DNA of 64,000 bases, from NCBI RefSeq assembly GCF_003435375.1, contig NZ_QWGL01000010.1, positions 1 to 64,000 of the forward strand. Reading direction: 5' to 3'. Positions within the stretch are counted from its first letter, which is position 1. Each line of letters opens with the position of its first letter. This DNA is from Clostridium sp. AM34-11AC. GTDB taxonomy: Bacteria > Bacillota > Clostridia > Lachnospirales > Lachnospiraceae. The position numbers were made by a program, and so were the translations under genes. Of the stretch, positions 42,397 through 58,873 are shown piece after piece. Under the pieces are notes generated by a model, which saw only the letters and a list, made by a program, of their open reading frames with translations, searched no databases and was not told the origin of the DNA.

Positions 42397-42672
42397 ATAA
42401 TCAGACGGTATGCGATACAGGATATAGACATGGAAGAGCCATGCCGCAAAAATAAGATAAGATCAGCATAGCTGCCATGAAGGGAGCAGGAAGCCGGTCA
42501 GGATGACGGGCTGCTCTTTTCATGGCTTTTTGTTGCCGTGTGCCGTGCACCTGGAAGCCAGGGAAGCTTTCAGCGGCTGTATCTGCGCGAAAATTCAGAT
42601 GGCGGAAGACGGCTGCGCCGGTGCGGACATGAGCAGCAGAACTTTTTGGAAAAAGGAGAAATTCTATTATAC

Positions 42673-43458
42673 ATGGAAGATATACGCGAAATGTTGAAAA
42701 AGGTGGCGGCAGGCGAGCTGTCTGTGGATAACGCTGTCCTGGAACTGAAGAAAGAGCCGTTTACGGCAGCAGGATACGATGACCTGGGATTCGCGAAGCT
42801 GGATACCCACCGGAAGCTGCGTCAGGGAGCGGCGGAGGTGATCTACGGAGCGGGGAAAACACCGCAGCAGATCGCCGGAATTGTGGAAGCGATGAAAAAA
42901 AGCGGACAGGAGACGATCCTGATCACCCGCGTGGATGAGGAGAAGAGCCGGGAGACAGAGAAACTTCTCGCTGGAAAGTACCCGGAAGGAAGCGGCTACA
43001 CATATTTTAAGGACGCAAAAGTAGCAATCTGCGGAAAATTCCCGGAAAAAGACGGCGTCGGAACCATCGTTGTTGCGACGGGCGGAACCAGTGATATTCC
43101 GGTTGCGGAGGAAGCGGCACTTACGGCAGAGGCACTTGGAAACCAGGTGGAACGCCTCTATGATGTGGGGGTTGCGGGCCTGCACCGCCTGCTGTCCCAC
43201 ATGGATTCTATTATGGATGCCCGTGTAATTATCGCCATCGCGGGGATGGAAGGCGCTCTCGCCAGCGTCATCGGCGGTCTCGCCGACTGCCCGGTGATCG
43301 CGGTGCCGACCAGCATCGGATACGGCGCGTCCTTCGGCGGTGTATCAGCGCTGCTCTCCATGCTGAATTCCTGCGCCAGCGGTGTCAGTGTGGTGAATAT
43401 CGATAATGGATTCGGCGCCGGATATCTGGCGAGCATGATGAATCATATGCGTGGATAA
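42673..43458 (+). CDS. larB: nickel-pincer cofactor carboxylase/hydrolase LarB
   Basis: 261 residues, usual LarB length. LarB carboxylates and hydrolyses nicotinic acid adenine dinucleotide to begin the nickel-pincer cofactor of lactate racemase. The PurE-like C-terminal half shows [19 protein letters not shown] and [15 protein letters not shown] at 42673 is 12 bases after AAAGGAGA, rather long spacing; the frame extends upstream without homology. larC follows by 126 bases. Confidence 0.93.
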
Positions 43459-43584
43459 GACTTCTGTTAACGTTGTCGGATCTGTCCGATCCGTAAATGA
43501 TATGGCGGAATCGTCGAATAAAGCTGTCGATTCGAATGGAATGAAAGAAAATAATTTGTACTTTTTTAATGAGGTGGAATCAAT

Positions 43585-45045
43585 ATGAAAACATTATATT
43601 TTGACTGTGGAATGGGCGCTGCCGGAGATATGCTGATGGCATCTCTCTACGAGATCTGCCCGGATAAAGAGAAATTTTTAAAGAGCATGAACGAAATGGG
43701 TCTGCCGGGACTCTCCATTGAGGCGGAACCGTCAGTAAAGTGCGGAATCACAGGAACACATATGAAGGTGACGATCCACGGGGAGGAAGAGGAGAGCGTG
43801 GATGTCGATCTGCAGGGGCATGAGCACGAGCATCATCAGGAGCATAACCATGAAGATAGTCAGCATAGCCATGCTCACGATCACCACCATGATCATGAAG
43901 ATACCCACCATGACCATAGTCACGAATCCCATCATCATGCCCACGAAATGGCAGAGTCAGCAGCAGAACAGACAGTTCACGAATGTATATATGATAAACA
44001 GGCTGATCAAAACCACGAGAATCAAAACGATCTCAATCACCCCCACACCCATGACCACGATCATAATTGCGGACATGATCATACCCACGATCATGGTCAC
44101 CCCCACCACCATCACGCCAGCATGGCAGGTATTTCCCATATCATCGAGCACTTAAACCTCCCGGAAGAGGTAAAGAACGACATCGTGGCAGTCTACCGCC
44201 TGATCGCCGAGGCCGAGTCCCACGTCCACGGAAAGACCGTCGAGGAGATCCACTTCCACGAGGTGGGCACCGCCGACGCGATCGCGGATATCGCTGGAGT
44301 CTGCCTTTTAATGCACATGATCGCCCCACAGAAGGTGATCGCATCCCCGATCCATGTCGGAAGCGGAAATGTCCGCTGCGCCCACGGGATCCTGCCGGTA
44401 CCGGCACCTGCGACAGCATTTATTTTACAGGGACTCCCAATCTACAGCGGAGATATCAGAGGTGAGCTCTGCACCCCGACCGGAGCGGCATTGTTAAAGC
44501 ACTTTGTGACAGAATTTAAGGAAATGCCGGTTATGCGGACCGCTGCCATTGGCTACGGTATGGGAAAGAAAGACTTTGAACGTGCAAACTGCGTGCGCGT
44601 CCTCTTAGGCGAGACAGAGGAGAATGGAAGTGAAGTGACAGAGCTCTCCTGTAATCTCGACGATATGACCCCGGAAGCCCTCGGCTTCGTTCAGGAGATC
44701 CTCTTTGCCGCAGGTGCCCTTGAGGTCTACACGATCCCGATCGGTATGAAGAAGAGCCGCCCGGGAATCCTTTTAACCTGCATGTGCCGCTGCAATGACA
44801 AAAAGAAGATGGTTTCCCTGCTCTTCAAACACACAACAACGCTTGGCATCCGTGAGAGTATCAGCAAACGCTACACCCTGACAAGAACGATAAAGGAACA
44901 TGAAACTCCGTATGGTGTGGTCCGGGAGAAGGTTTCCGAAGGATACGGTGTGTGCCGCGGAAAATTAGAGTACGAAGATATTGCAAAGATCGCGAGAGAG
45001 AATGGAATGTCGTTAGAGGAAGTTAAGGAATTAGTAGAGAAATAG
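43585..45045 (+). CDS. larC: nickel-pincer cofactor nickel insertase LarC, continuous
   Basis: 486 residues. LarC inserts nickel into the pincer cofactor. N-terminal YFDCGMGAAGDMLMASLYE and C-terminal NLDDMTPEALGFVQEIL are characteristic. Between about residues 80 and 175 lies a His/Asp/Glu-rich insert with dozens of His, likely a nickel store. In Lactobacillus LarC is made by programmed frameshift from larC1/larC2; here it is one open frame. The start follows GAGGTGG. Neither larA nor larE is in the window. Confidence 0.94.
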   Translation: MKTLYFDCGMGAAGDMLMASLYEICPDKEKFLKSMNEMGLPGLSIEAEPSVKCGITGTHMKVTIHGEEEESVDVDLQGHEHEHHQEHNHEDSQHSHAHDHHHDHEDTHHDHSHESHHHAHEMAESAAEQTVHECIYDKQADQNHENQNDLNHPHTHDHDHNCGHDHTHDHGHPHHHHASMAGISHIIEHLNLPEEVKNDIVAVYRLIAEAESHVHGKTVEEIHFHEVGTADAIADIAGVCLLMHMIAPQKVIASPIHVGSGNVRCAHGILPVPAPATAFILQGLPIYSGDIRGELCTPTGAALLKHFVTEFKEMPVMRTAAIGYGMGKKDFERANCVRVLLGETEENGSEVTELSCNLDDMTPEALGFVQEILFAAGALEVYTIPIGMKKSRPGILLTCMCRCNDKKKMVSLLFKHTTTLGIRESISKRYTLTRTIKEHETPYGVVREKVSEGYGVCRGKLEYEDIAKIARENGMSLEEVKELVEK

Positions 45046-45622: not shown

Positions 45623-46165
45623 TTAGCCAAAATATCTCTTTAAGAGACCAGCAAATGCCTTGCCATGTCTAGCCTCGTCTCTTGCCATCTCGTGAACTGT
45701 ATCATGGATCGCATCAAGACCAGCGGCCTTTGCTCTCTTAGCGAGATCTGTCTTACCAGCAGTAGCGCCGTTCTCAGCCTCAACTCTCATCTCGAGGTTC
45801 TTCTTTGTGCTGTCTGTGATAACTTCACCGAGGAGCTCTGCGAACTTAGCAGCGTGCTCAGCCTCTTCGTAAGCTGCTTTCTCATAGTAAAGACCGATCT
45901 CCGGATAACCTTCTCTGTGGGCAACTCTTGCCATAGCGAGGTACATACCAACCTCAGAGCACTCACCGTTGAAGTTTGCTCTTAAGTCCTCAAGGATATC
46001 TTCGCTTACGCCCTGAGCAACACCAACTACGTGCTCAGAAGCCCAGCTCATTTCATCGCTCTGCTCAATGAACTTGGAAGCCGGTGCGTTACATACCGGA
46101 CATTTCTCCGGAGCAGCCTCACCCTCATATACATAACCACATACGGAACAGACAAATTTCTTCAT
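45623..46165 (-). CDS. reverse rubrerythrin (rubredoxin plus ferritin-like)
   Basis: 180 residues. An N-terminal rubredoxin-like domain (CSVCGY and CPVCNA, about 6-24) is fused to a diiron ferritin-like domain (about 45-180) with Glu/His ligands in [20 protein letters not shown] and [11 protein letters not shown]. Such reverse rubrerythrins reduce hydrogen peroxide and oxygen in anaerobes. The promoter at 46232-46260 carries a palindrome resembling a PerR/Fur box. The Fur-family gene lies directly upstream on the same strand. Confidence 0.93.
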
Positions 46166-46215
46166 AGCGTTTTCTCCTTTTCATTTATAAAATATTGTGT
46201 TTTGAAATCAATAAT

Positions 46216-46260
46216 AGTAACTGTTACTGATATTATATTCTAATTGACTCTGAATGTCAA
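46216..46260 (-). promoter_or_regulatory. rubrerythrin promoter with PerR/Fur-like box
   Basis: On the minus strand TTGACA (46260-46255) and TATAAT (46237-46232), exact consensus, 17-base spacer. Just downstream AGTAAC-T-GTTACT (46216-46228) is a perfect 6-1-6 palindrome within a longer AT-rich dyad. Confidence 0.8.
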
Positions 46261-46276
46261 TAGAATTTTTATTTTT

Positions 46277-46669
46277 TTAGTATTCCTTTTTCCGGCAGTC
46301 CTCACATTCGCCGTAAAAGAAAACAGTGTGGGAATCGACCCGTCCCGGAAACGGAGCGGAGAGAAGATCCGAAGTGTCACGAACCAGCTCCAGAGGCATA
46401 TCGATGATCGCTCCGCAAGTCTTGCACACAAAGTGATAATGCGGATCTGTGTTGTAATCAAAATGCTCCGATCCGTCTCCGCTGGAAAAACGCTGGATCT
46501 CGCCCATATCCGCCAGAAGCTTTAAATTGCGGTATACAGTTCCCAGGCTGATCTTCGGGTATTCTTTGCTGATCGTTACATAGACGGCGTCTGCGGTCGG
46601 ATGATCCTTGCGGTTTTTCAGGCACTCCCGGATAGATTCGCGCTGGCGGCTGAATTTTAATGCTTTCAT
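46277..46669 (-). CDS. Fur-family regulator, probably PerR
   Basis: 130 residues from the ATG at 46669 with AAAGGAGG upstream. Winged-helix N-terminus with ISLGTVYRNLKLL recognition helix, His/Asp-rich metal region (HYHFVCKTC) and structural zinc cysteines CKTC and CEDC. The linked rubrerythrin gene, and boxes in both promoters, favour peroxide sensing (PerR) over iron (Fur), but the distinguishing Asp ligand cannot be judged without alignment. Confidence 0.9.
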   Translation of the reverse strand: MKALKFSRQRESIRECLKNRKDHPTADAVYVTISKEYPKISLGTVYRNLKLLADMGEIQRFSSGDGSEHFDYNTDPHYHFVCKTCGAIIDMPLELVRDTSDLLSAPFPGRVDSHTVFFYGECEDCRKKEY

Positions 46670-46715
46670 GGTGAACCTCCTTTCTGGATTTGTAAAGACC
46701 AAACAACAATAATAA

Positions 46716-46761
46716 TGATAATTGTTATCAACATAATACCATCAGAGATATCCACTGTCAA
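46716..46761 (-). promoter_or_regulatory. Fur/PerR-gene promoter with autoregulatory box
   Basis: Minus-strand TTGACA (46761-46756) and TATTAT (46738-46733), 17-base spacer. TGATAAT-T-GTTATCA (46716-46730) matches the Fur/PerR 7-1-7 consensus at all but one position and overlaps the start point. Confidence 0.85.
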
Positions 46762-46885: not shown

Positions 46886-46914
46886 TTGAAAACACCTTAA
46901 GAAGTGTTTATACT
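46886..46914 (+). promoter_or_regulatory. promoter of the giant fusion gene
   Basis: TTGAAA (46886-46891) and TATACT (46909-46914), 17-base spacer, giving a leader of about 135 bases. Confidence 0.6.
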
Positions 46915-47054: not shown

Positions 47055-50000
47055 ATGTATAACAGACACATCCGCCACCTTGTGACAGAGCTTGGAAACC
47101 GTCTGTCAGACAAAGAATTTTTAAAAAAGATCGGTCTCAGCCGCCGCAGCATGCAGCAGCTCTTTGATAAAGACCGCTGGGAAGTGATCTTCGAGAAGGC
47201 ATTCCCGGTAACAAGACGTTTTTCCTGCGCGGAGATTCTGGAATTCTGCCGCGTAGATATGGAAAAACTCAGCAGTGAACCGGAGGAGGGATGGCTTTCC
47301 TTCGCTTATAAATATTCGACCCACATTCTGTACCCGGATGCGGATTTCGCTGTGTCCGCAGCTCCTTATGCGCCGTCTGCGCTCTATTTCCTGAATGTTC
47401 TCCAGTACTTCTTTGATGAAGAACGGAAGGTTCTGCCGTTCGATCCATATGATGATTTCCGCTTTCTGACAGAAGAAGAATATGCCGGTTTTGAGCGTGC
47501 CGGTGAGTATGCCCACTTTATCCGTGAGTTCCGTGATCAGTACATATACGAGATGATGCGGTTAAACCGTGAGGCGACCCCGTTCGAGACACTGGGACAT
47601 ATCGCGGGTGTCCACTATGTTGCGATGGTGGCAGCCCGAGGGCTTTATGAGGCGGGGGTGCCAATTGACCTGGCGTTGGCGTCGGGCGCAGCAGCGGGAC
47701 ATGACCTCGGAAAATTTGGCTGTAAGCCGGATGAGCGGGTTCCGTACCTTCACTATTTTTATACGAACCAGTGGTTTACCGCCTACAATATGGAAGGAAT
47801 CGGCCACATCGCCGCGAACCATTCCACCTGGGATCTGGAGCTCGACAATATCTCTGTGGAGTCCCTGGTTCTGATTTACGCCGATTTCCGCGTAAAACAG
47901 ATGCGCGGCGAGGATGGCCGCGAGATCACGAAGATCTACACGTTAAAAGATTCCTTTGATGTGATCCTGTCAAAGCTTGACAATGTGGATGAGGCAAAAC
48001 GGAACCGCTACCGCGTCGTCTACTCCCGCCTCTACGAATTCGAGCGTTACATGCGTTCCAAAGGCGTGGATGTGGATCTGACAGGAAACCCGGATCCGGC
48101 GGAGCAGCCGGTAGATATTGTCGTACAGACCGGAAAACAGGTGGTCCGCTCCTTCGTATTCTGGGGAATCGAGCATAACATCGACGTGATGCACCGCCTC
48201 GGAACCGAGCGCCAGTTCGGAAATATCCTGGAGGCGGCGAGAAGCGAAAAAGACTGGAAGAATGTCCGCGCGTACTTAAATATGTTCAACGAATATTCGA
48301 TCCACCTGAACCACCGCCAGAAAGAGCAGACCATCAGATTCCTGTATGAGCTCCTCTTAAACCGCGAGGGCGATATCCGGAGACAGGCGGCGGCGCTCAT
48401 CGGAAAAATGTTCGCAGATTTCAACGCCGGATACCGGAAAGAGCTGCCGAAAAATATGCCGGATCCGGACGCTAAGACGGCACTGACGCTCTGGGAGGAG
48501 TATCTTGGACAGCTCATATGCCCGGATTATCGCCTGACACTGCAGCAGAAGAACCGAATTCAGAATTCTCTGAAATTTGTCATGGTATCCGCCATGGAAC
48601 GGAGTTCGGAGAAGGTCCGGGAAGAGCTGTTCGAAGTCTTCATGAAGTGGTTTGACGGACACCACCGCCTTGTGGGTGATCCGGTATTCTACCTATTAGA
48701 CTGTATATTCTCCCTGCCTCTGGATCTTTGCAGCAAGGGGAGTCGTCTGGAACGTTTGATCTGCTTTGCCATCAGCCATATGGACGACCCGGATGAGAAG
48801 GTGCAGATCGCGGCCGTCCGCGTCTTAAAGGTTCTGACCCAGGCGGTGCCGCCGGAAAGCGCCTGCTACGAGATCGTCTGCGACGCGGCGCACCGGATCA
48901 ATCCGAGGACGATCACGCTGCTGTTTTTACAGTACCGGATCTATACGAACCTGCGCCTGGACACCACTGCCCAACGGGAAGTCTTATACGGACATGATGT
49001 GGTCAGCGATATCTTCCTTGAAAATTTAAAATCCGCTACTCCGTGGATCTTGAAATCCGTAAACATCAAGCTTCTGGCAGATCAGGTAGATCACGGAAAG
49101 CGGGATCACCTTCTCCATATCTGTGCCCATTTTTCCAACCTGATCAAAGTCAGCGAGCAGGTTGGTGTCCGCCATGACGCGGGCCGCGCGCTCCTGCGTC
49201 TTGCCCATTTGCTGGCAACAGACCAGAGAAACGAGATCGCGGTGGAACTCTTAAAGGGACTGGAAGTGGGAGAGTACGAGTTCTCCAAATACATTCCGGA
49301 ATACCTCGGCGAGTTCGCCTTATGGCTGCCGCCGGAACAGCTTGATGACATGATCGAGCGACTGCACATCCTGCTGGCGAACGGAAACGAACGGATCGTG
49401 TCCGTTGCCCTCGATACGTTAGGAGTCCTTTTGGAGTGCTATTCGCGGTATACCGTCCGTTTCCATGAGTCCGAGGAAGTATCGGAAGAACGCCGCATGA
49501 AGCTTCTCGGCCTGATTTTAAGCTGTCTTGCAAACTACCGGGAGCAGGTCCGTCAGGAGGCACTGCTTGTCATTGGACAGCATATTTTCGGCTCCCAGAT
49601 CCTTGCGGAGCGGGACAAGAGCAGAATGTTCTCCCTTTGCGCAAAGAAACTCCTGTTCCTGTTAAATGAGAATAAGGGCGGCGAGCTGAGTCTCTACTAC
49701 CGTGCCGCGACCCTGTCCCATATCGACCGTTTTATCGCTCACTACCAGTTGTTCGGCGGTCTGGTGGAGACCAGGACGCGGGAGAAGATCGCATTTTTCC
49801 CGGGAACCTTTGACCCGTTTACCTTATCCCACAAGGAGATCGCAAAGAAGATCCAGGAGCTCGGATTTACCGTATTTCTTGCCATTGATGAGTTTTCCTG
49901 GTCGAAGAAGACCCAGCCGCATCTGGTGCGCCGACAGATCGTAAACATGTCCATCGCGGACGAGTTTTATGTCCATTTATTCCCGGACAACACGCCGGTA

Positions 50001-51908
50001 AATATCGCGAATCCGGCGGACCTGCGGAGGCTGAAGGAGATGTTCCCGACGGAAGAACTCTATATCGTTGTGGGATCCGACGTGATCCACAACGCGAGCT
50101 CCTACAAGAAGGATCCGGAGGAGAATTCCATCCATTCCTTCAACCACATCGTCTTCCGGCGCCCTGGTGAGGCACACCCGACGGAGGTTTACGAGCAGAT
50201 CACCGGAAAAGTCGTGCAGCTGGAGCTCCCGCAGGAGCTGGAGGATATCAGCTCCACGAAGATCCGTGAAAATATTGATAACCACCGCGATATTTCCAGC
50301 CTCATCGACCCGGTAGTCCAAGAATACATTTACCACAAGGGCATGTACCTGCGCGAGCCGGAATTCAAGCCGATCTTACGGGCGAAAGCTATCGCCTTCG
50401 AGAACGCGGCGGGCAGGGACCGTGAGGTACTGGACGAGCTTGGAAACACCGTTCTCTACGGACATCCGGACGCCCAGGCGATCCTGACAAAGATCCAGGT
50501 GGAGAATGACCGCCTGCTGATCTTAAGAAATACCGTGGAAGGTGAGCGCCCGGCGGGCTTTGTGAGCTACCGGGAGATCGGAAACGAGGATCTGTTCGGC
50601 GTCTTAAAGGACATGGAGCTGGCAAACCTGGTCCGCGGAAAGAGCAGCCGGGAGATCCTTCTGATCACAGGCATCTATGCGAGAGAGGACGGCACCGGGG
50701 ACAGCGGGGTGATCCGCGATGCCCCGCAGCAGCTTCTCGTTGAAGTGCTGGCGAAAGAGTTGGAGAAAAACTACAGTTTCGCATTGTTTGTCGCGGAGCG
50801 CGGCACAGCGACGAAAGAGGTCGTGTACGTGCTGGAGAGACAGGGCTTTATCCGTCCGCATATGGCGGACGAGAACGACAAGCGGACGATCTACATGGTC
50901 GACATGCATGAGCCGTTAATGTTCCTGCATAACCTGGATACTACGATCAAGGAGCCGTTTGCCAGCAATCCGGCGGTTCTGGATGCTGTGGAGAAAAACC
51001 ACAAAAAGCTTCAGATCGCTATGACGAAGCTGTATCCGGGAAATCTTGTACTGTCCTTGTCATCCGGCATCATGTATCATCGTCTTGTGGACCGGATCAC
51101 GGCGCTCAACGATGTTCCGAGAGAGCCGCTGGTGCCGAGAAGACTCGGAAAGAACATGTGCGTTCCGTTCGGTAAGATCCTGCGTGGAAAGGTTGTGCCG
51201 AATACGGTGACGAAGACGCTGCATACCGATAAGGTCTATGAGCCGGATCTGAACAGCTTTACGATCGAGCCGTTCCCGTACTACTCACCGTTAAAAAGCC
51301 AGATCGAGACCATCAAGTCCTTCGATCGGCCGGTGATCCTGGTGGATGACCTCGTCCACACGGCGAACCGGCTCCAGGTGCTCGTTCCGCAGCTCAGGGA
51401 AGACGGGATCCCCATCAAGAAGGTCGTCGTGGGCGTCCTGTCCGGCTACGGCCGCGACCTGATGCAGTGCCTGAAGGTGCCGGTGGAGAGCATCTACTCG
51501 ATGCCGAACCTGCGCCAGTGGTTCGTGGAGTCTACACTGTATCCGTTTATCGGTGGCGATACCGTGCGCCGTGAGGAGATGAAGGTTGCGGGACTTCAGC
51601 CGTCCATCAACATGATTCTGCCCTACGCGACGCCGAGACTTTCCGGCTGCAGCCGGGAGGCGCTTGTGGAGTTCTCGGCCTGCTGTATCGAGAATTCCAG
51701 GGATCTTTTCCAGGTCCTTGAAGCGGAATACCGGAAAATGTACGCGAAAAACCTTACCCTTTCACGCCTCTCCGAGGCCGTCATCCTGCCGCTCTGCCCG
51801 GATAAGGGAAGCTGTATGGAGTATGATGAGAACCTGGCGGCGTCAGTATATCTGGAGAATGATCTGGAGACGCTGTGGAGGATGAAAGAGTTTCTGATCA
51901 AGGGATAA
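47055..51908 (+). CDS. giant multidomain protein: HD, helical repeats, NadD-like, GNAT-like, PRTase-like
   Basis: 1617 residues, GGAGG upstream. Visible in order: an HD phosphohydrolase domain (about 175-330) with H187 or H182, H216-D217 (AAGHDLGKFG), H251, H256 and D277, as in YqeK; helical HEAT/ARM-like repeats (about 350-905); a nucleotidyltransferase (about 910-1095) with FFPGTFDPFTLSH, VVGSDVIHN and ISSTKIREN, as in NadD; a GNAT-like region (about 1110-1290); and a type I phosphoribosyltransferase-like domain with the PRPP loop PVILVDDLVHTANR at about 1425. NadD and YqeK are often neighbours in Firmicutes, so a fused NAD/nucleotide-processing machine is inferred. Activity of each domain is unproved; TLSH replaces the usual TxGH. 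Confidence 0.85.
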   Translation: MYNRHIRHLVTELGNRLSDKEFLKKIGLSRRSMQQLFDKDRWEVIFEKAFPVTRRFSCAEILEFCRVDMEKLSSEPEEGWLSFAYKYSTHILYPDADFAVSAAPYAPSALYFLNVLQYFFDEERKVLPFDPYDDFRFLTEEEYAGFERAGEYAHFIREFRDQYIYEMMRLNREATPFETLGHIAGVHYVAMVAARGLYEAGVPIDLALASGAAAGHDLGKFGCKPDERVPYLHYFYTNQWFTAYNMEGIGHIAANHSTWDLELDNISVESLVLIYADFRVKQMRGEDGREITKIYTLKDSFDVILSKLDNVDEAKRNRYRVVYSRLYEFERYMRSKGVDVDLTGNPDPAEQPVDIVVQTGKQVVRSFVFWGIEHNIDVMHRLGTERQFGNILEAARSEKDWKNVRAYLNMFNEYSIHLNHRQKEQTIRFLYELLLNREGDIRRQAAALIGKMFADFNAGYRKELPKNMPDPDAKTALTLWEEYLGQLICPDYRLTLQQKNRIQNSLKFVMVSAMERSSEKVREELFEVFMKWFDGHHRLVGDPVFYLLDCIFSLPLDLCSKGSRLERLICFAISHMDDPDEKVQIAAVRVLKVLTQAVPPESACYEIVCDAAHRINPRTITLLFLQYRIYTNLRLDTTAQREVLYGHDVVSDIFLENLKSATPWILKSVNIKLLADQVDHGKRDHLLHICAHFSNLIKVSEQVGVRHDAGRALLRLAHLLATDQRNEIAVELLKGLEVGEYEFSKYIPEYLGEFALWLPPEQLDDMIERLHILLANGNERIVSVALDTLGVLLECYSRYTVRFHESEEVSEERRMKLLGLILSCLANYREQVRQEALLVIGQHIFGSQILAERDKSRMFSLCAKKLLFLLNENKGGELSLYYRAATLSHIDRFIAHYQLFGGLVETRTREKIAFFPGTFDPFTLSHKEIAKKIQELGFTVFLAIDEFSWSKKTQPHLVRRQIVNMSIADEFYVHLFPDNTPVNIANPADLRRLKEMFPTEELYIVVGSDVIHNASSYKKDPEENSIHSFNHIVFRRPGEAHPTEVYEQITGKVVQLELPQELEDISSTKIRENIDNHRDISSLIDPVVQEYIYHKGMYLREPEFKPILRAKAIAFENAAGRDREVLDELGNTVLYGHPDAQAILTKIQVENDRLLILRNTVEGERPAGFVSYREIGNEDLFGVLKDMELANLVRGKSSREILLITGIYAREDGTGDSGVIRDAPQQLLVEVLAKELEKNYSFALFVAERGTATKEVVYVLERQGFIRPHMADENDKRTIYMVDMHEPLMFLHNLDTTIKEPFASNPAVLDAVEKNHKKLQIAMTKLYPGNLVLSLSSGIMYHRLVDRITALNDVPREPLVPRRLGKNMCVPFGKILRGKVVPNTVTKTLHTDKVYEPDLNSFTIEPFPYYSPLKSQIETIKSFDRPVILVDDLVHTANRLQVLVPQLREDGIPIKKVVVGVLSGYGRDLMQCLKVPVESIYSMPNLRQWFVESTLYPFIGGDTVRREEMKVAGLQPSINMILPYATPRLSGCSREALVEFSACCIENSRDLFQVLEAEYRKMYAKNLTLSRLSEAVILPLCPDKGSCMEYDENLAASVYLENDLETLWRMKEFLIKG

Positions 51909-54833: not shown

Positions 54834-55883
54834 ATGAGAAAGAGATTTTCCGTAGCAATGGCACTCGCATTATCCTGTGCAATGGTACTGACCGCTTGTT
54901 CCGGCGGCAGCAAACCGGCAGAGACCACAGCCGCAGCAGCAGCCGACACTACCGCGGCAGCAGCTGAAACAACAGCAGCCGCAGCAGCAGCCCCGAGTGG
55001 TGATGCCCAGAAGTTAACAATGGGTACTGGCGGAACCACCGGTACATATTACGCATTCGGTGGTGTAATCGCGAATGTATTAAACAGCAAAGACATCGGA
55101 GTGAACATTAACGTTCAGTCTACTGGTGCTTCCAAAGCAAATATCTACCTTGTAAACGACGGTGAAGCAGACCTCGCGATCGTACAGAACGACGTTATGG
55201 ATTATGCTTACAACGGAACTGACCTCTTCGCAGAAGAAGGCGCAGCAAAAGATTTCACAACAGTTGCAGCCCTCTACGCTGAGGTTTGCCAGATCGTATC
55301 CTCCGGCGATATCAAATCTGTCGCTGACTTAAAGGGCAAGAGAGTATCCGTTGGTGACGCAGGCTCTGGTGTTGAGTTCAACGCACGTCAGATCCTCGAG
55401 GCTTATGACATCTCCTTCGATGATATCCAGGTCAACAACCTCGGATTCGGTGATTCCGCAGATGCGTTAAAAGACGGCAAGATCGATGCTTTCTTCTGTA
55501 CAGCAGGCGCACCGACAACAGCGATCGTAGAGCTCGCTACAACAAACGCGATCAACCTTCTTGAGATCGATGACGAGCATGCGAAGAAGCTTGCGGATGC
55601 ACATCCGTTCTACACAACATACGCAATCCCGGGCGGCTCCTATAAGGGCGTTGACGATGATGTTCAGACAGTTGCTATCAAAGCTACTCTGATCGCATCC
55701 CCGAAGCTTTCCGAAGAAACAGTTTATAACCTCACAAAGGCTATTTTCGATAACAAAGATGAGATCGCTTCCACACATGCAAAGGGCGAAGAGCTTGATC
55801 TCGAATATGCGGTTTCCGGTATTTCTGTTCCGTTCCATCCGGGTGCTGAGAAGTACTTCAAGGAAGTAGGAGCAATCAAGTAA
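54834..55883 (+). CDS. TAXI-family TRAP transporter binding lipoprotein
   Basis: 349 residues. Lipobox LTAC (Cys near 22), Ala/Thr-rich linker to about residue 58, then a TAXI-type binding domain: MGTGGTTGTYYAFGG, VQSTGASKANIYLV and LKGKRVSVGDAGSGVEFNAR. TAXI proteins deliver glutamate, other organic acids or unknown solutes to a TRAP permease. AGGAGG precedes the ATG. The DUF1850 gene and fused permease follow. Confidence 0.94.
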   Translation: MRKRFSVAMALALSCAMVLTACSGGSKPAETTAAAAADTTAAAAETTAAAAAAPSGDAQKLTMGTGGTTGTYYAFGGVIANVLNSKDIGVNINVQSTGASKANIYLVNDGEADLAIVQNDVMDYAYNGTDLFAEEGAAKDFTTVAALYAEVCQIVSSGDIKSVADLKGKRVSVGDAGSGVEFNARQILEAYDISFDDIQVNNLGFGDSADALKDGKIDAFFCTAGAPTTAIVELATTNAINLLEIDDEHAKKLADAHPFYTTYAIPGGSYKGVDDDVQTVAIKATLIASPKLSEETVYNLTKAIFDNKDEIASTHAKGEELDLEYAVSGISVPFHPGAEKYFKEVGAIK

Positions 55884-55888
55884 TTACC

Positions 55889-56380
55889 TTGAAAAACAGG
55901 AAAGTAAGATTCTTTACAGTGGCAGCAATAATCACGGCAATTATTGCTGCCACTCTTGCCTATACCTTACGAAGCGGAGACTATCTGGTCCTGAGGAACG
56001 GAGACACAAACGCAGAATATGCCCGCTTCCGGGTAAAAGAGGGGGATGAGTTTTCTGTAACGTTCATCCACTCGGTAAATAAGTATCCGTTGACGGACGT
56101 TTACGAGATCCGCGACCACAAGATCTACGTGATCCGCACGATCTACAATAATTTCGGTGCGGGCGTGCAGACAGAGATCGAGGATGGGCAGACGCTTACG
56201 TATGATGAAAACGGGGAGATGGTTGTTTCCGGGTTTGACAAGGAAATGCCGTATCTCTCATATATTGTGGGTACGGTCTCGGACCACACACTCACACTTC
56301 ACGGAAAAGAAATCAGTTTGAGGGATCTCTGCGGACGAAACAGCAAAGTAGAGTTCTCCTGTGAACATAAAGGATTCTAA
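55889..56380 (+). CDS. DUF1850 protein of the TAXI-TRAP operon
   Basis: 163 residues from TTG, five bases after the preceding stop, with no good ribosome site, so translation is probably coupled. One N-terminal membrane anchor (about 8-25, VAAIITAIIAATLAYTL) is followed by an extracytoplasmic domain with VTFIHSVNKYPLTDVYEI, the DUF1850 core. Genes of this family regularly sit between TAXI binding proteins and TRAP permeases; role unknown. Confidence 0.85.
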   Translation: MKNRKVRFFTVAAIITAIIAATLAYTLRSGDYLVLRNGDTNAEYARFRVKEGDEFSVTFIHSVNKYPLTDVYEIRDHKIYVIRTIYNNFGAGVQTEIEDGQTLTYDENGEMVVSGFDKEMPYLSYIVGTVSDHTLTLHGKEISLRDLCGRNSKVEFSCEHKGF

Positions 56381-56472
56381 GCGTTAAAAGAGTTTCGGAC
56401 ATATCCGGCGCCTGTTTGTATAGGGGGTATACAGGGGCAGCGCCGGAAACGAAATATAAAGGAGGGATTGGT

Positions 56473-58446
56473 ATGGCAGAGAAAGACAACATGAAAGTCA
56501 ACACATCTCCGGTGGCTGATGTGGAGACCGGTACCGCCGAAGATGTCGAAGCCATCATGAAAAAGTACGACCGTGAATCGAATACCCGAATCTGGGAAGG
56601 CACCCCGAAGCAGGTCATTCGTTTCCTTCTGGCAGCGTTTTCAGTTTTAATGCTCTATATGAACCTGTTTGCAAACTGGGATGAGCGTGTAAGACGTTCC
56701 CTGTTTGTCGGTTTTGTAATTATCCTTTCATTCCTGGTATATCCGATGAAAAAGGGAAGCTCAAAAAAGAATTCCGTTCCGATCTACGATATTATCCTTA
56801 TGGTACTCGGAGCCGGTGCTTACTTCTATTTCGTATTTAACTTTAAAACAATTATCGGCCACGCGACACGAATCAGCCAGACAGAGGTTATCGTTGGCGT
56901 GATCGGTATCCTGATCTTAGCAGAAACATGCCGCCGCGTTGTAGGTATTCCGATCCTCTGTGTGGCGACATTCTTTGTGGGTTACGCGTTTTATAACGGA
57001 CTTGGACAGGGCAGAGCCTTCGCGGTAGTCTTAAAGTCCATCGTTTACAACCTGTTCTATACGACGAGTGGTGTTATCGGTACTCCGATTGGTGTCTGCT
57101 CCACGTATATCGCACTGTTTATCCTGTTCGGCGCTTTCCTTGAGGCGACCGGTATTTCTGAATTCTTTATCCAGCTGGCAAACTCTCTGGCAGGCGCTTC
57201 CACAGGCGGACCGGCAAAGGTAGCGGTTATCTCCTCTGCTCTCTGCGGTATGGTATCCGGAAGCTCCGTTGGTAATACAGTAACGACCGGTTCCGTAACG
57301 ATCCCGTTAATGAAGAAGACCGGTTATCAGGGTGAATTCGCAGGTGCCGTTGAGGCAGCTTCCTCCACCGGTGGACAGATCATGCCGCCGATCATGGGCG
57401 CCGCCGCATTCTTAATGGCTGAGATGGTAGGCGTTCAGTACGGCGAGATCGCGATGAGAGCGATCTTCCCGGCACTCCTCTACTTCACAGGTATCTTCAT
57501 TACTGTACACCTTGAGGCAAAGAGACTTGGCTTAAAGGGTATCCCGAAGGATGAGCTTCCGAAATTCGGACCGTTATTTGTCCGTCAGGGTTATCTTCTT
57601 ATTCCGTTAGTTGCCCTTGTTGCAATGGTTATGATGGGCTACACGATGTCCCGTGCAGCGATCATCGCTACCGCCCTTGCAATCCTTGTCAGCATGCCGA
57701 ATAAAGAAACAAGAATGAACCCGACAAGATTCATCAACGCGTTGGAGGCAGGCGGTAAGAATACACTTTCCGTAGCTGTTGCCTGCGGCGTTGCCGGAAT
57801 CATCGCCGGTGTCGTAACAATGACCGGTCTTGGACAGCTCCTGATCTCCGCAATTGTCGGCGTTGCCGGTGACCGCGTGATCGTAGCATTATTCCTTACT
57901 ATGTTAACCTGTATCGTTCTTGGTATGGGCGTTCCGACAACTGCAAACTACATCATTATGGCTACCACATGTGCACCGATCCTCGTAAACGGTATGGGAA
58001 TCAACAAGATCGCTGCCAACATGTTCGTATTCTACTTCGGTATCGTAGCAGATATCACACCGCCGGTTGCTCTTGCAGCTTACGCAGGATCCGCGATCGC
58101 GAAATCCAACCCGATGAAGACCGCGTTAAACGCATCCCGTCTTGCGATCGCAGCGTTCATCGTACCGTATATCTTCGCGTTTAACCCGGCAATGTTATTT
58201 ATCGATACAGGCGTTCTCGGTGTTGTAACGATCATCGTAACATCCCTGATCGGTCTGTTCGGCGTTGCAGCCGGTCTTGAAGGCTATATGTTCGCGAACC
58301 TGAATGTGATCGAGAGACTCTTATCCATCGTCGGAGGTCTCTGCCTGATCATTCCGGGAACCGTGACAGACATTGTCGGTATCGTTCTTGTCGGAATTTC
58401 AGCGGCGCTGCAGATCATGAAAAAGAAGAAAGCGGCTGTGGCATAG
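56473..58446 (+). CDS. TRAP transporter fused permease (TAXI type)
   Basis: 657 residues from the ATG preceded by AAAGGAGGG. It fuses the small (DctQ-like) and large (DctM-like) permease subunits, with roughly 16-18 membrane helices. Conserved segments include GMVSGSSVGNTVTTGSVTIP, GQIMPPIMGAAAFLMAE and GMGVPTTANYIIMATTCAP. It uses ion gradients to import the solute captured by the TAXI lipoprotein. A bidirectional terminator is at 58550. Confidence 0.95.
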   Translation: MAEKDNMKVNTSPVADVETGTAEDVEAIMKKYDRESNTRIWEGTPKQVIRFLLAAFSVLMLYMNLFANWDERVRRSLFVGFVIILSFLVYPMKKGSSKKNSVPIYDIILMVLGAGAYFYFVFNFKTIIGHATRISQTEVIVGVIGILILAETCRRVVGIPILCVATFFVGYAFYNGLGQGRAFAVVLKSIVYNLFYTTSGVIGTPIGVCSTYIALFILFGAFLEATGISEFFIQLANSLAGASTGGPAKVAVISSALCGMVSGSSVGNTVTTGSVTIPLMKKTGYQGEFAGAVEAASSTGGQIMPPIMGAAAFLMAEMVGVQYGEIAMRAIFPALLYFTGIFITVHLEAKRLGLKGIPKDELPKFGPLFVRQGYLLIPLVALVAMVMMGYTMSRAAIIATALAILVSMPNKETRMNPTRFINALEAGGKNTLSVAVACGVAGIIAGVVTMTGLGQLLISAIVGVAGDRVIVALFLTMLTCIVLGMGVPTTANYIIMATTCAPILVNGMGINKIAANMFVFYFGIVADITPPVALAAYAGSAIAKSNPMKTALNASRLAIAAFIVPYIFAFNPAMLFIDTGVLGVVTIIVTSLIGLFGVAAGLEGYMFANLNVIERLLSIVGGLCLIIPGTVTDIVGIVLVGISAALQIMKKKKAAVA

Positions 58447-58549
58447 AAGAAATGGATGAAAGTTATATCGGAGTATATTGCAAAGGAAATTTGCATATGA
58501 TATAATGGCTAAGAAAGAAATAGAACATAGTTCAAATTTACACAAAATG

Positions 58550-58586
58550 AAACCCCTCAGAGCGGCATCTCTGAGGGGTTTCTTCT
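58550..58586. terminator. bidirectional terminator
   Basis: AAACCCCTCAGAG (58550-58562) and CTCTGAGGGGTTT (58569-58581) form a perfect 13-bp stem. It serves the TRAP operon and the small minus-strand gene at 58618. Confidence 0.88.
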
Positions 58587-58617
58587 CGTTTTATGTAGTT
58601 GAGCATCTACAGGTTAG

Positions 58618-58710
58618 TTACCGATCCAGTTTACTGTCTAACCATTTGATGATGTAGTGACACACCACACCAGCCATGACAGCAACTATAAAAGAAAAAA
58701 CATAATCCAA
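58618..58710 (-). CDS. 30-residue hydrophobic peptide, TTG start
   Basis: TTG at 58708-58710 has an excellent ribosome site, AAAGGAGGTGT, seven bases upstream. The peptide has a single membrane helix (YVFSFIVAVMAGVVCHYII) and a basic tail (KWLDSKLDR). A bidirectional terminator follows the stop. The pattern is that of small type I toxin-like or small membrane proteins common in Clostridia, but I cannot name the family. No antisense RNA is evident in 58711-58951. Confidence 0.6.
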   Translation of the reverse strand: MDYVFSFIVAVMAGVVCHYIIKWLDSKLDR

Positions 58711-58873
58711 ATTTACACCTCCTTTCTGTCACCAGATTGGAGTGGGTAACGAGACGAGTATATCATAGGCAGGAGAAAATTGATAGTTACTCCAGTATAA
58801 AACAGAGATAAAAAATAGACTTTTGTGAGGAATATTTGTGTATGAGGAGATCCCTGTTTTCATTGATTTTATC

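Follow-up and report, generated by a model that had tools for sequence, protein, structure and literature searches.

Our analysis provides evidence for a three-protein system in Clostridia, consisting of a giant fusion protein and two redox-type proteins (here called P2 and P3), whose genes keep their order across loci and tend to be present or absent together. In the window, i.e. the whole stretch of 64,000 nucleotides from contig NZ_QWGL01000010.1 of Clostridium sp. AM34-11AC that was analyzed, all three genes lie on the forward strand. From the anatomy, conservation, gene order and co-occurrence of this trio we infer its activities and mechanism: with a probability of roughly 40%, the giant makes and removes a dedicated dinucleotide that its two partners use or sense, and this molecule would be a NAD-like cofactor or a redox signal beside NAD.

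The giant is encoded at 47055..51908 (+) by a single intact reading frame of 1617 residues, and comparison by domain with profiles and structures bears out the five parts and their order as given in a preliminary description of this DNA. An N-terminal helical segment (residues 1-136, 47055..47462, +), seen in the AlphaFold2 model, is followed by an HD hydrolase domain (residues ~137-345, 47463..48089, +) recognized by invariant residues, Pfam HD and HD structures, and by HEAT-type helical repeats (residues ~360-905, 48132..49769, +) of presumed extent, based on Pfam HEAT and structure matches over ~375-480. The second half holds a NadD/NMNAT-like nucleotidyltransferase domain (residues ~907-1101, 49773..50357, +; Pfam PF01467 and NCBIfam NadD models), a GNAT-fold domain (residues ~1110-1290, 50382..50924, +), a class I phosphoribosyltransferase (PRTase) fold domain with a variant PRPP loop at 1427-1439 (residues ~1305-1520, 50967..51614, +) and a mostly helical C-terminal part (residues 1534-1617, 51654..51905, +). 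This domain order supports the earlier idea of a nucleotide-processing fusion on a repeat scaffold. Homology to HD, nucleotidyltransferase and PRTase profiles was found, and the HD and nucleotidyltransferase residues are kept in 57/57 homologues; the HD motif (216-217) as well as the nucleotidyltransferase start (PGTFDPFTLSH) and end (ISSTKIREN), all read by eye beforehand, contain such residues.

Of 7996 candidates scored in a search with the whole giant, 7411 matched at E <= 1e-3, and a search from the far relative in locus L021 matched 1056 of 7990 candidates. Among the best 120 of each search the homologues are mostly about 1600 residues long, with some shorter pieces among the best 120 of the 7411. 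The matches listed include Lachnospiraceae, Clostridiaceae, Peptococcus simiae, Anaerotignum, Sinanaerobacter, Chakrabartyella and Anaerovoracaceae, and the databases call them ‘cytidyltransferase-related domain protein’, NadD, ‘hypothetical protein’ or the like. Conservation was scored in 57 members, obtained from 236 proteins of 1540-1725 aa plus seven loci by filtering to <70% mutual identity, a rule that removed L017 and L021; for the giants of the far loci the identity is 35-51%. One giant from a metagenome-assembled genome (L003:501-5345) carries a single in-frame stop at position 749, within the presumed HEAT region. When separate forms of the C-terminal half were sought by protein search, the best 120 of 267 matches were mostly shorter, nameless pieces. 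Two axonemal chains (9e5c_5d and 8j07_d0), which Foldseek superimposed over ~500 columns at an rmsd of 21-22, were disregarded as relatives of the giant.

Within the HD domain H182, H216, D217, K220, H233, H256 and D277 are identical in 57/57 members, so that the H...HD...H...D metal ligands of the HD superfamily are complete, and the fold matches HD structures; Pfam HD was found in 11/29 members, and Foldseek with residues 1-480 gave no significant match. The YqeK model TIGR00488 did not match the domain, and hhalign against a profile of four YqeK sequences gave a probability of 3.7% (E 0.011, 36 columns). By model and profile, the domain is not YqeK and shares only the general HD core with it.

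The nucleotidyltransferase domain shows identical P916, G917, D920, H926, D1009, S1066, I1070 and R1071 in 57/57 members. Both nucleotide motifs, T/HxGH and ISSTxIR, are present, with H926 in 57/57 and S or T at 923 in 56/57. D920, H926 and D1009 correspond in 57/57 members to D13, H19 and D109 of E. coli NadD, residues shown to be important in passages of PMC1249556. The pyridine side differs. The pyridine pocket of E. coli NadD is formed by H45, W117 and Y118, and docking has the residue after the Trp recognizing the pyridine nucleotide by its carboxyl or amide group, as passages of PMC8035330 describe. In an alignment with the separate NadD proteins of four relatives’ genomes, PPHK and TYTAxTL are missing from the giant; the stacking Trp is a Tyr (Y1017) in 57/57 and the next residue, at the position of Y118, is K/R in 47/57, both counted ungapped from D1009, so that the acceptor pocket would be changed but conserved. 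The pyridine-pocket loop has no conserved His, its alignment is ambiguous, and the Tyr might still provide ring stacking. As judged from these residues, the nucleoside-triphosphate side of the domain is kept and its acceptor side is altered but conserved.

The usual 5'-phosphate loop of class I PRTases reads T-G-x-T. The PRTase domain of the giant has the class I fold and the hydrophobic stretch with acidic pair typical of the PRPP loop, D1431 in 56/57 and, at 1432, D or E in 57/57; the 5'-phosphate motif is replaced by a K-G-Y-R consensus (T-A-N-R in the window). The PRPP-type loop noted earlier near 1425 keeps its acidic pair and lacks T-G-x-T, so that the domain may only bind. N1383-T1384-V1385-T1386 are invariant, and Pfam PRTase models matched in only 5/29 members (best E 3.6e-3). 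NaMN is made by class II PRTases, the class to which the PRTases of NAD synthesis belong (passages of PMC10380321); the domain of the giant has the class I fold, that of the purine and pyrimidine enzymes. Of the GNAT-like part the fold stood, over ~1110-1290, and the acetyl-CoA loop did not. GNAT acetyltransferases bind acetyl-CoA by an R/Q-x-x-G-x-G/A loop, and in the giant this loop is lost, being gapped and variable in a region weakly conserved across the family. The helical-repeat part is supported by Pfam HEAT in 18/29 members and by PP2A-A and catenin-type structure matches over residues ~375-480.

The two genes that follow the giant were absent from the preliminary description and are added here. 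P2 (52037..53323, +; the true start may be 52061) is a 428 aa protein of the LDH/MDH fold. PF00056 was found in 13/13 members with E values no higher than 0.1, the best being 5.6e-9, the window copy remaining under the cut-off (16.9 of 27 bits). Compared with the PDB, the P2 profile matched MGS-M5 (4q3n, 2.2e-7) and L-lactate dehydrogenases (from 5.8e-7). LDH/MDH enzymes use a catalytic Asp-His pair and a substrate Arg. P2 retains G-D-V-G, the Asp that follows strand 2 (D160) and the residues found in LDH as Arg and His (15/15); the position of the catalytic Asp is a Met in 15/15, so that the Asp-His pair of LDH/MDH is broken. Because the former are kept and the catalytic Asp is a Met, P2 probably binds a dinucleotide-type ligand and is unlikely to perform ordinary LDH chemistry; it may be non-catalytic. 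About 120 N-terminal residues of the window P2 lie outside the LDH match. P3 (53517..54614, +; 365 aa) has an FMN_red domain at 175-331 (PF03358, 68.5 bits, cut-off 24) and four cysteines (218, 221, 226 and 235), invariant in 14/14 and spaced C-x2-C-x4-C-x8-C in the window, which could hold an iron-sulfur cluster. Its N-terminal half gave no Pfam match, and no sequence relative of P3 was found in the PDB at E 0.1. PADLOC gave 0 families for giant, P2 and P3 at E 0.01, and a known defence or phage system was rejected on the grounds that PADLOC and PHROGs both gave 0 families for the trio.

Gene order and distribution tie the three proteins together. In the window P2 and P3 lie downstream of the giant on the same strand. 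By tblastn, they come directly after it in 8/8 near loci (L001-L008) and in 6/7 far loci (L016, L018-L022); with the window the order giant-P2-P3 is found in 15/16 loci. In the remaining genome (G334) P2 and P3 adjoin each other on a contig other than that of the giant. When the 96 ORFs of at least 90 aa in the seven far loci were compared, each of the 51 cross-locus matches (E 1e-5) joined giants, P2s or P3s, and no other shared neighbour was detected. A full-length giant occurs in 8/398 genomes of the phylum, P2 in the same eight (E <= 1e-8) and P3 in nine, the ninth (G219) showing a partial match to the FMN_red part only (residues 175-305, E 3.8e-9). A further 160 phylum genomes match the giant at E <= 1e-3, among the matches listed only over residues ~874-1194, mainly the NadD-like domain. 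In the family sample each of the three is found in the same 4/150 genomes at E <= 1e-30. Save for the weak partial match in G219, no genome with only one or two members of the trio was found among these 398 and 150. Some of the genome matches behind these counts contain internal TGA, TAG or TAA. G002, the centre of both samples and counted in both, had been chosen for its giant, and three of the four family carriers (G002-G004) were known beforehand, G452 being a fresh find; the new agreement therefore rests on the seven other phylum genomes and on G452. Independent draws would give identical sets of 8/398 with a chance of 7e-17 (centre included), a value that is too strong because the carriers share descent. 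Part of the co-occurrence does reflect such descent; a distribution this patchy (2-3%), even inside a single family, argues for gain or loss of the three genes together.

Upstream of the giant a putative sigma-A promoter was found at 46886..46914 (+), with TTGAAA at 46886-46891, a 17 bp spacer and TATACT at 46909-46914; CTTGAAAA and TTATACT are identical across all six aligned upstream regions. A Fur-box-like site at 46716-46730 lies beside a divergent fur gene, ~155 bp from the -35 element of the giant, and was not taken to control it. That gene and one for rubrerythrin occupy 45623-46702 (-), and matches to both are found upstream of the giant in L002, L004, L006 and L008 among L001-L008. 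On the other side, right after the trio, a cassette of TAXI-type receptor, DUF1850 and DctM permease genes (54834-58446) is matched completely in L002, L003, L004, L005 and L008 and by none of the seven far loci. The fur/rubrerythrin genes and the TRAP-type transporter were rejected as members of the unit, being matched in near loci only. Genes like larB and larC for nickel insertion lie at 42538-45045 in the window, at L001:4153-6088 and at L004:6701-8594; larC is one frame in the window, and in L001 and L004 it seems to be split between two overlapping frames, an arrangement reminiscent of programmed frameshifting. A link of the trio to a nickel-pincer cofactor through these genes was likewise rejected, as they accompany it in the near loci L001, L004, L005 and L008 only and in none of the flanks fetched for the seven far loci. 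At 58537-58750 (-), in the gap that separates the TRAP permease gene from that for threonine synthase, Rfam SpF66_sRNA matches with 60 bits (gathering score 42). In L019:3268-5051 an AAA-type ATPase (374 aa) and a 220-aa protein, by eye a defence-type pair, stand beside the trio.

In the mechanism that we propose, the PRTase domain would bind PRPP and, going by its class I fold, might ribosylate a base; it would supply or recycle an acceptor via PRPP, or else act as a PRPP-gated regulator. The NadD-like domain, whose ATP-side residues are invariant, would transfer AMP from ATP to a phosphorylated acceptor other than NaMN and so form a dinucleotide, both donor and acceptor of this transfer being assumed. 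The HD domain may hydrolyse the dinucleotide or faulty products, as suggested by its ligands and by the NadD-YqeK precedent in passages of PMC9426524; with this hydrolysis on the same chain, one protein would set the dinucleotide level. The HEAT repeats and the degenerate GNAT domain could hold the active sites together and dock the partners, and P2 (of a dinucleotide-binding LDH fold that lacks the catalytic Asp) and P3 (of four-cysteine flavoprotein type) would bind, reduce or sense the dinucleotide. In the boldest version of this scenario the trio would produce and use a natural dinucleotide that resembles NAD without being NAD or FAD, a redox cofactor orthogonal to these in Clostridia, built by the class I PRTase and the NadD-like adenylyltransferase, policed by the HD domain on the same chain and used by the LDH-fold protein and the flavoprotein; we regard it as conceivable and still rather doubtful.

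The preliminary description had seen in the giant an all-in-one machine for processing pyridine nucleotides or dinucleotides; in the pyridine reading, one enzyme would synthesize, salvage or recycle NAD. The nucleotidyltransferase of the giant is indeed closest to NadD models, and YqeK-type HD hydrolases are neighbours or fusion partners of NadD in passages of PMC9426524. This role is nevertheless very improbable, given the altered pyridine pocket, the class I PRTase fold, an HD domain that by model and profile is not YqeK, and NadD scores of 61.8 of 150 bits (NF000840) and 53.7 of 112.45 bits (TIGR00482); giants from 15 genomes all match the NadD models, and 0/15 exceed a cut-off. A look for stand-alone nadD and yqeK, run in relatives’ genomes, also went against it. 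A separate NadD above cut-off is present in 14/15 genomes with a giant (the exception, G007, matched solely via its giant), YqeK in 7/8 genomes tested (again except G007), the class II nicotinate PRTase in 14/15 (missing in G385) and NadC above cut-off in 5/15; frames matching TIGR01513 or TIGR00078 in the 15 genomes are all of 280-542 aa, with no giant among them. We thus reject the giant as the NadD of the cell (scores far below the cut-offs, separate NadD in 14/15), as its YqeK (no TIGR00488 match, weak profile similarity, separate YqeK in 7/8) and as a NaMN-forming PRTase (class I fold, separate nicotinate PRTase in 14/15).

A tentative alternative, which we hold to be possible and still unlikely, is a signal enzyme in which the nucleotidyltransferase makes and the HD domain destroys an alarmone, an Ap4A- or NAD-like messenger, with P2 and P3 as sensors that set the balance and not as cofactor users. 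A synthase and a hydrolase on one chain are typical of signal turnover, and the Met at the LDH catalytic Asp of P2 (15/15), the altered ligand loops of the GNAT and PRTase domains and the patchy presence (8/398 and 4/150) would fit; against it, the neighbourhood of the trio in the seven far loci offers no conserved separate effector protein, and P3 resembles a redox enzyme. That the HEAT solenoid grips a protein or RNA, which the nucleotidyltransferase adenylylates and from which the HD domain removes the mark, is improbable: ~545 residues of presumed repeats and protein N-acetyltransferases among the best VIA rows for the GNAT fold would agree with such a machine, whereas the nucleotidyltransferase is of the small-molecule NadD/NMNAT type and the partners resemble cofactor-type redox proteins. 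It is just as hard to believe as the NAD role that the giant is a scaffold of dead enzyme domains which only bind nucleotides and partners; the lost acetyl-CoA loop, the altered PRPP loop and the missing catalytic Asp of P2 would be in line with decay, but the HD and nucleotidyltransferase residues are invariant in 57/57 members.

Among the papers listed by searches of the open-licence PMC literature none is on the giant, its architecture or the trio, in keeping with the earlier remark that no characterised protein is known with this order of domains. All the folds involved are known; those searches turned up neither their combination nor the co-inherited trio nor the altered acceptor pocket, and we regard the trio as new as a system. 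Once an activity is demonstrated, it could turn out to be a variant of a known cofactor pathway. To our knowledge, dinucleotide redox cofactors and alarmones are few. Synthase-, hydrolase- and PRPP-type domains co-inherited on one chain with two redox-type proteins, in genomes that make NAD anyway, would suggest that another cofactor or signal exists. Even without a new cofactor, entries named ‘cytidyltransferase-related domain protein’ or ‘nicotinate-nucleotide adenylyltransferase’ would be mislabelled.

Among known systems, the NadD-YqeK fusion of mycoplasma, whose HD domain hydrolyses NaAD and analogues (passages of PMC9426524), shares a nucleotidyltransferase and an HD hydrolase on one chain and offers a model of make-and-check chemistry; in the giant, by contrast, the HD domain comes first, is not YqeK-like by model or profile, and is accompanied by further parts of the chain (HEAT, GNAT, PRTase) as well as by the partners P2 and P3. 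NadD itself (TIGR00482, NF000840) shares family resemblance and the ATP-side residues with residues 907-1101, whereas the domain of the giant scores below the cut-offs, is altered on the pyridine side and sits within a chain of 1617 residues. Class I phosphoribosyltransferases (B. subtilis XPRT 1y0b, UPRT 6wn8/1xtt) have the same fold and acidic PRPP-loop pair, but the giant has K-G-Y-R in place of T-G-x-T and adds the invariant N-T-V-T at 1383-1386. The GNAT acyltransferases NAA60, GCN5 and RimI resemble residues ~1110-1290 in fold and, unlike these, possess the R/Q-x-x-G-x-G/A loop. P2 shares the dinucleotide-binding half, DPVD and the Arg and His positions with L-lactate/malate dehydrogenases (PF00056) and departs from them by the Met for the catalytic Asp in 15/15 and by the ~120 extra N-terminal residues. 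P3, finally, resembles the NADPH-dependent FMN reductase family (PF03358) over residues 175-331 and differs from it by the C-x2-C-x4-C-x8-C cysteines and by an N-terminal half outside the Pfam matches.
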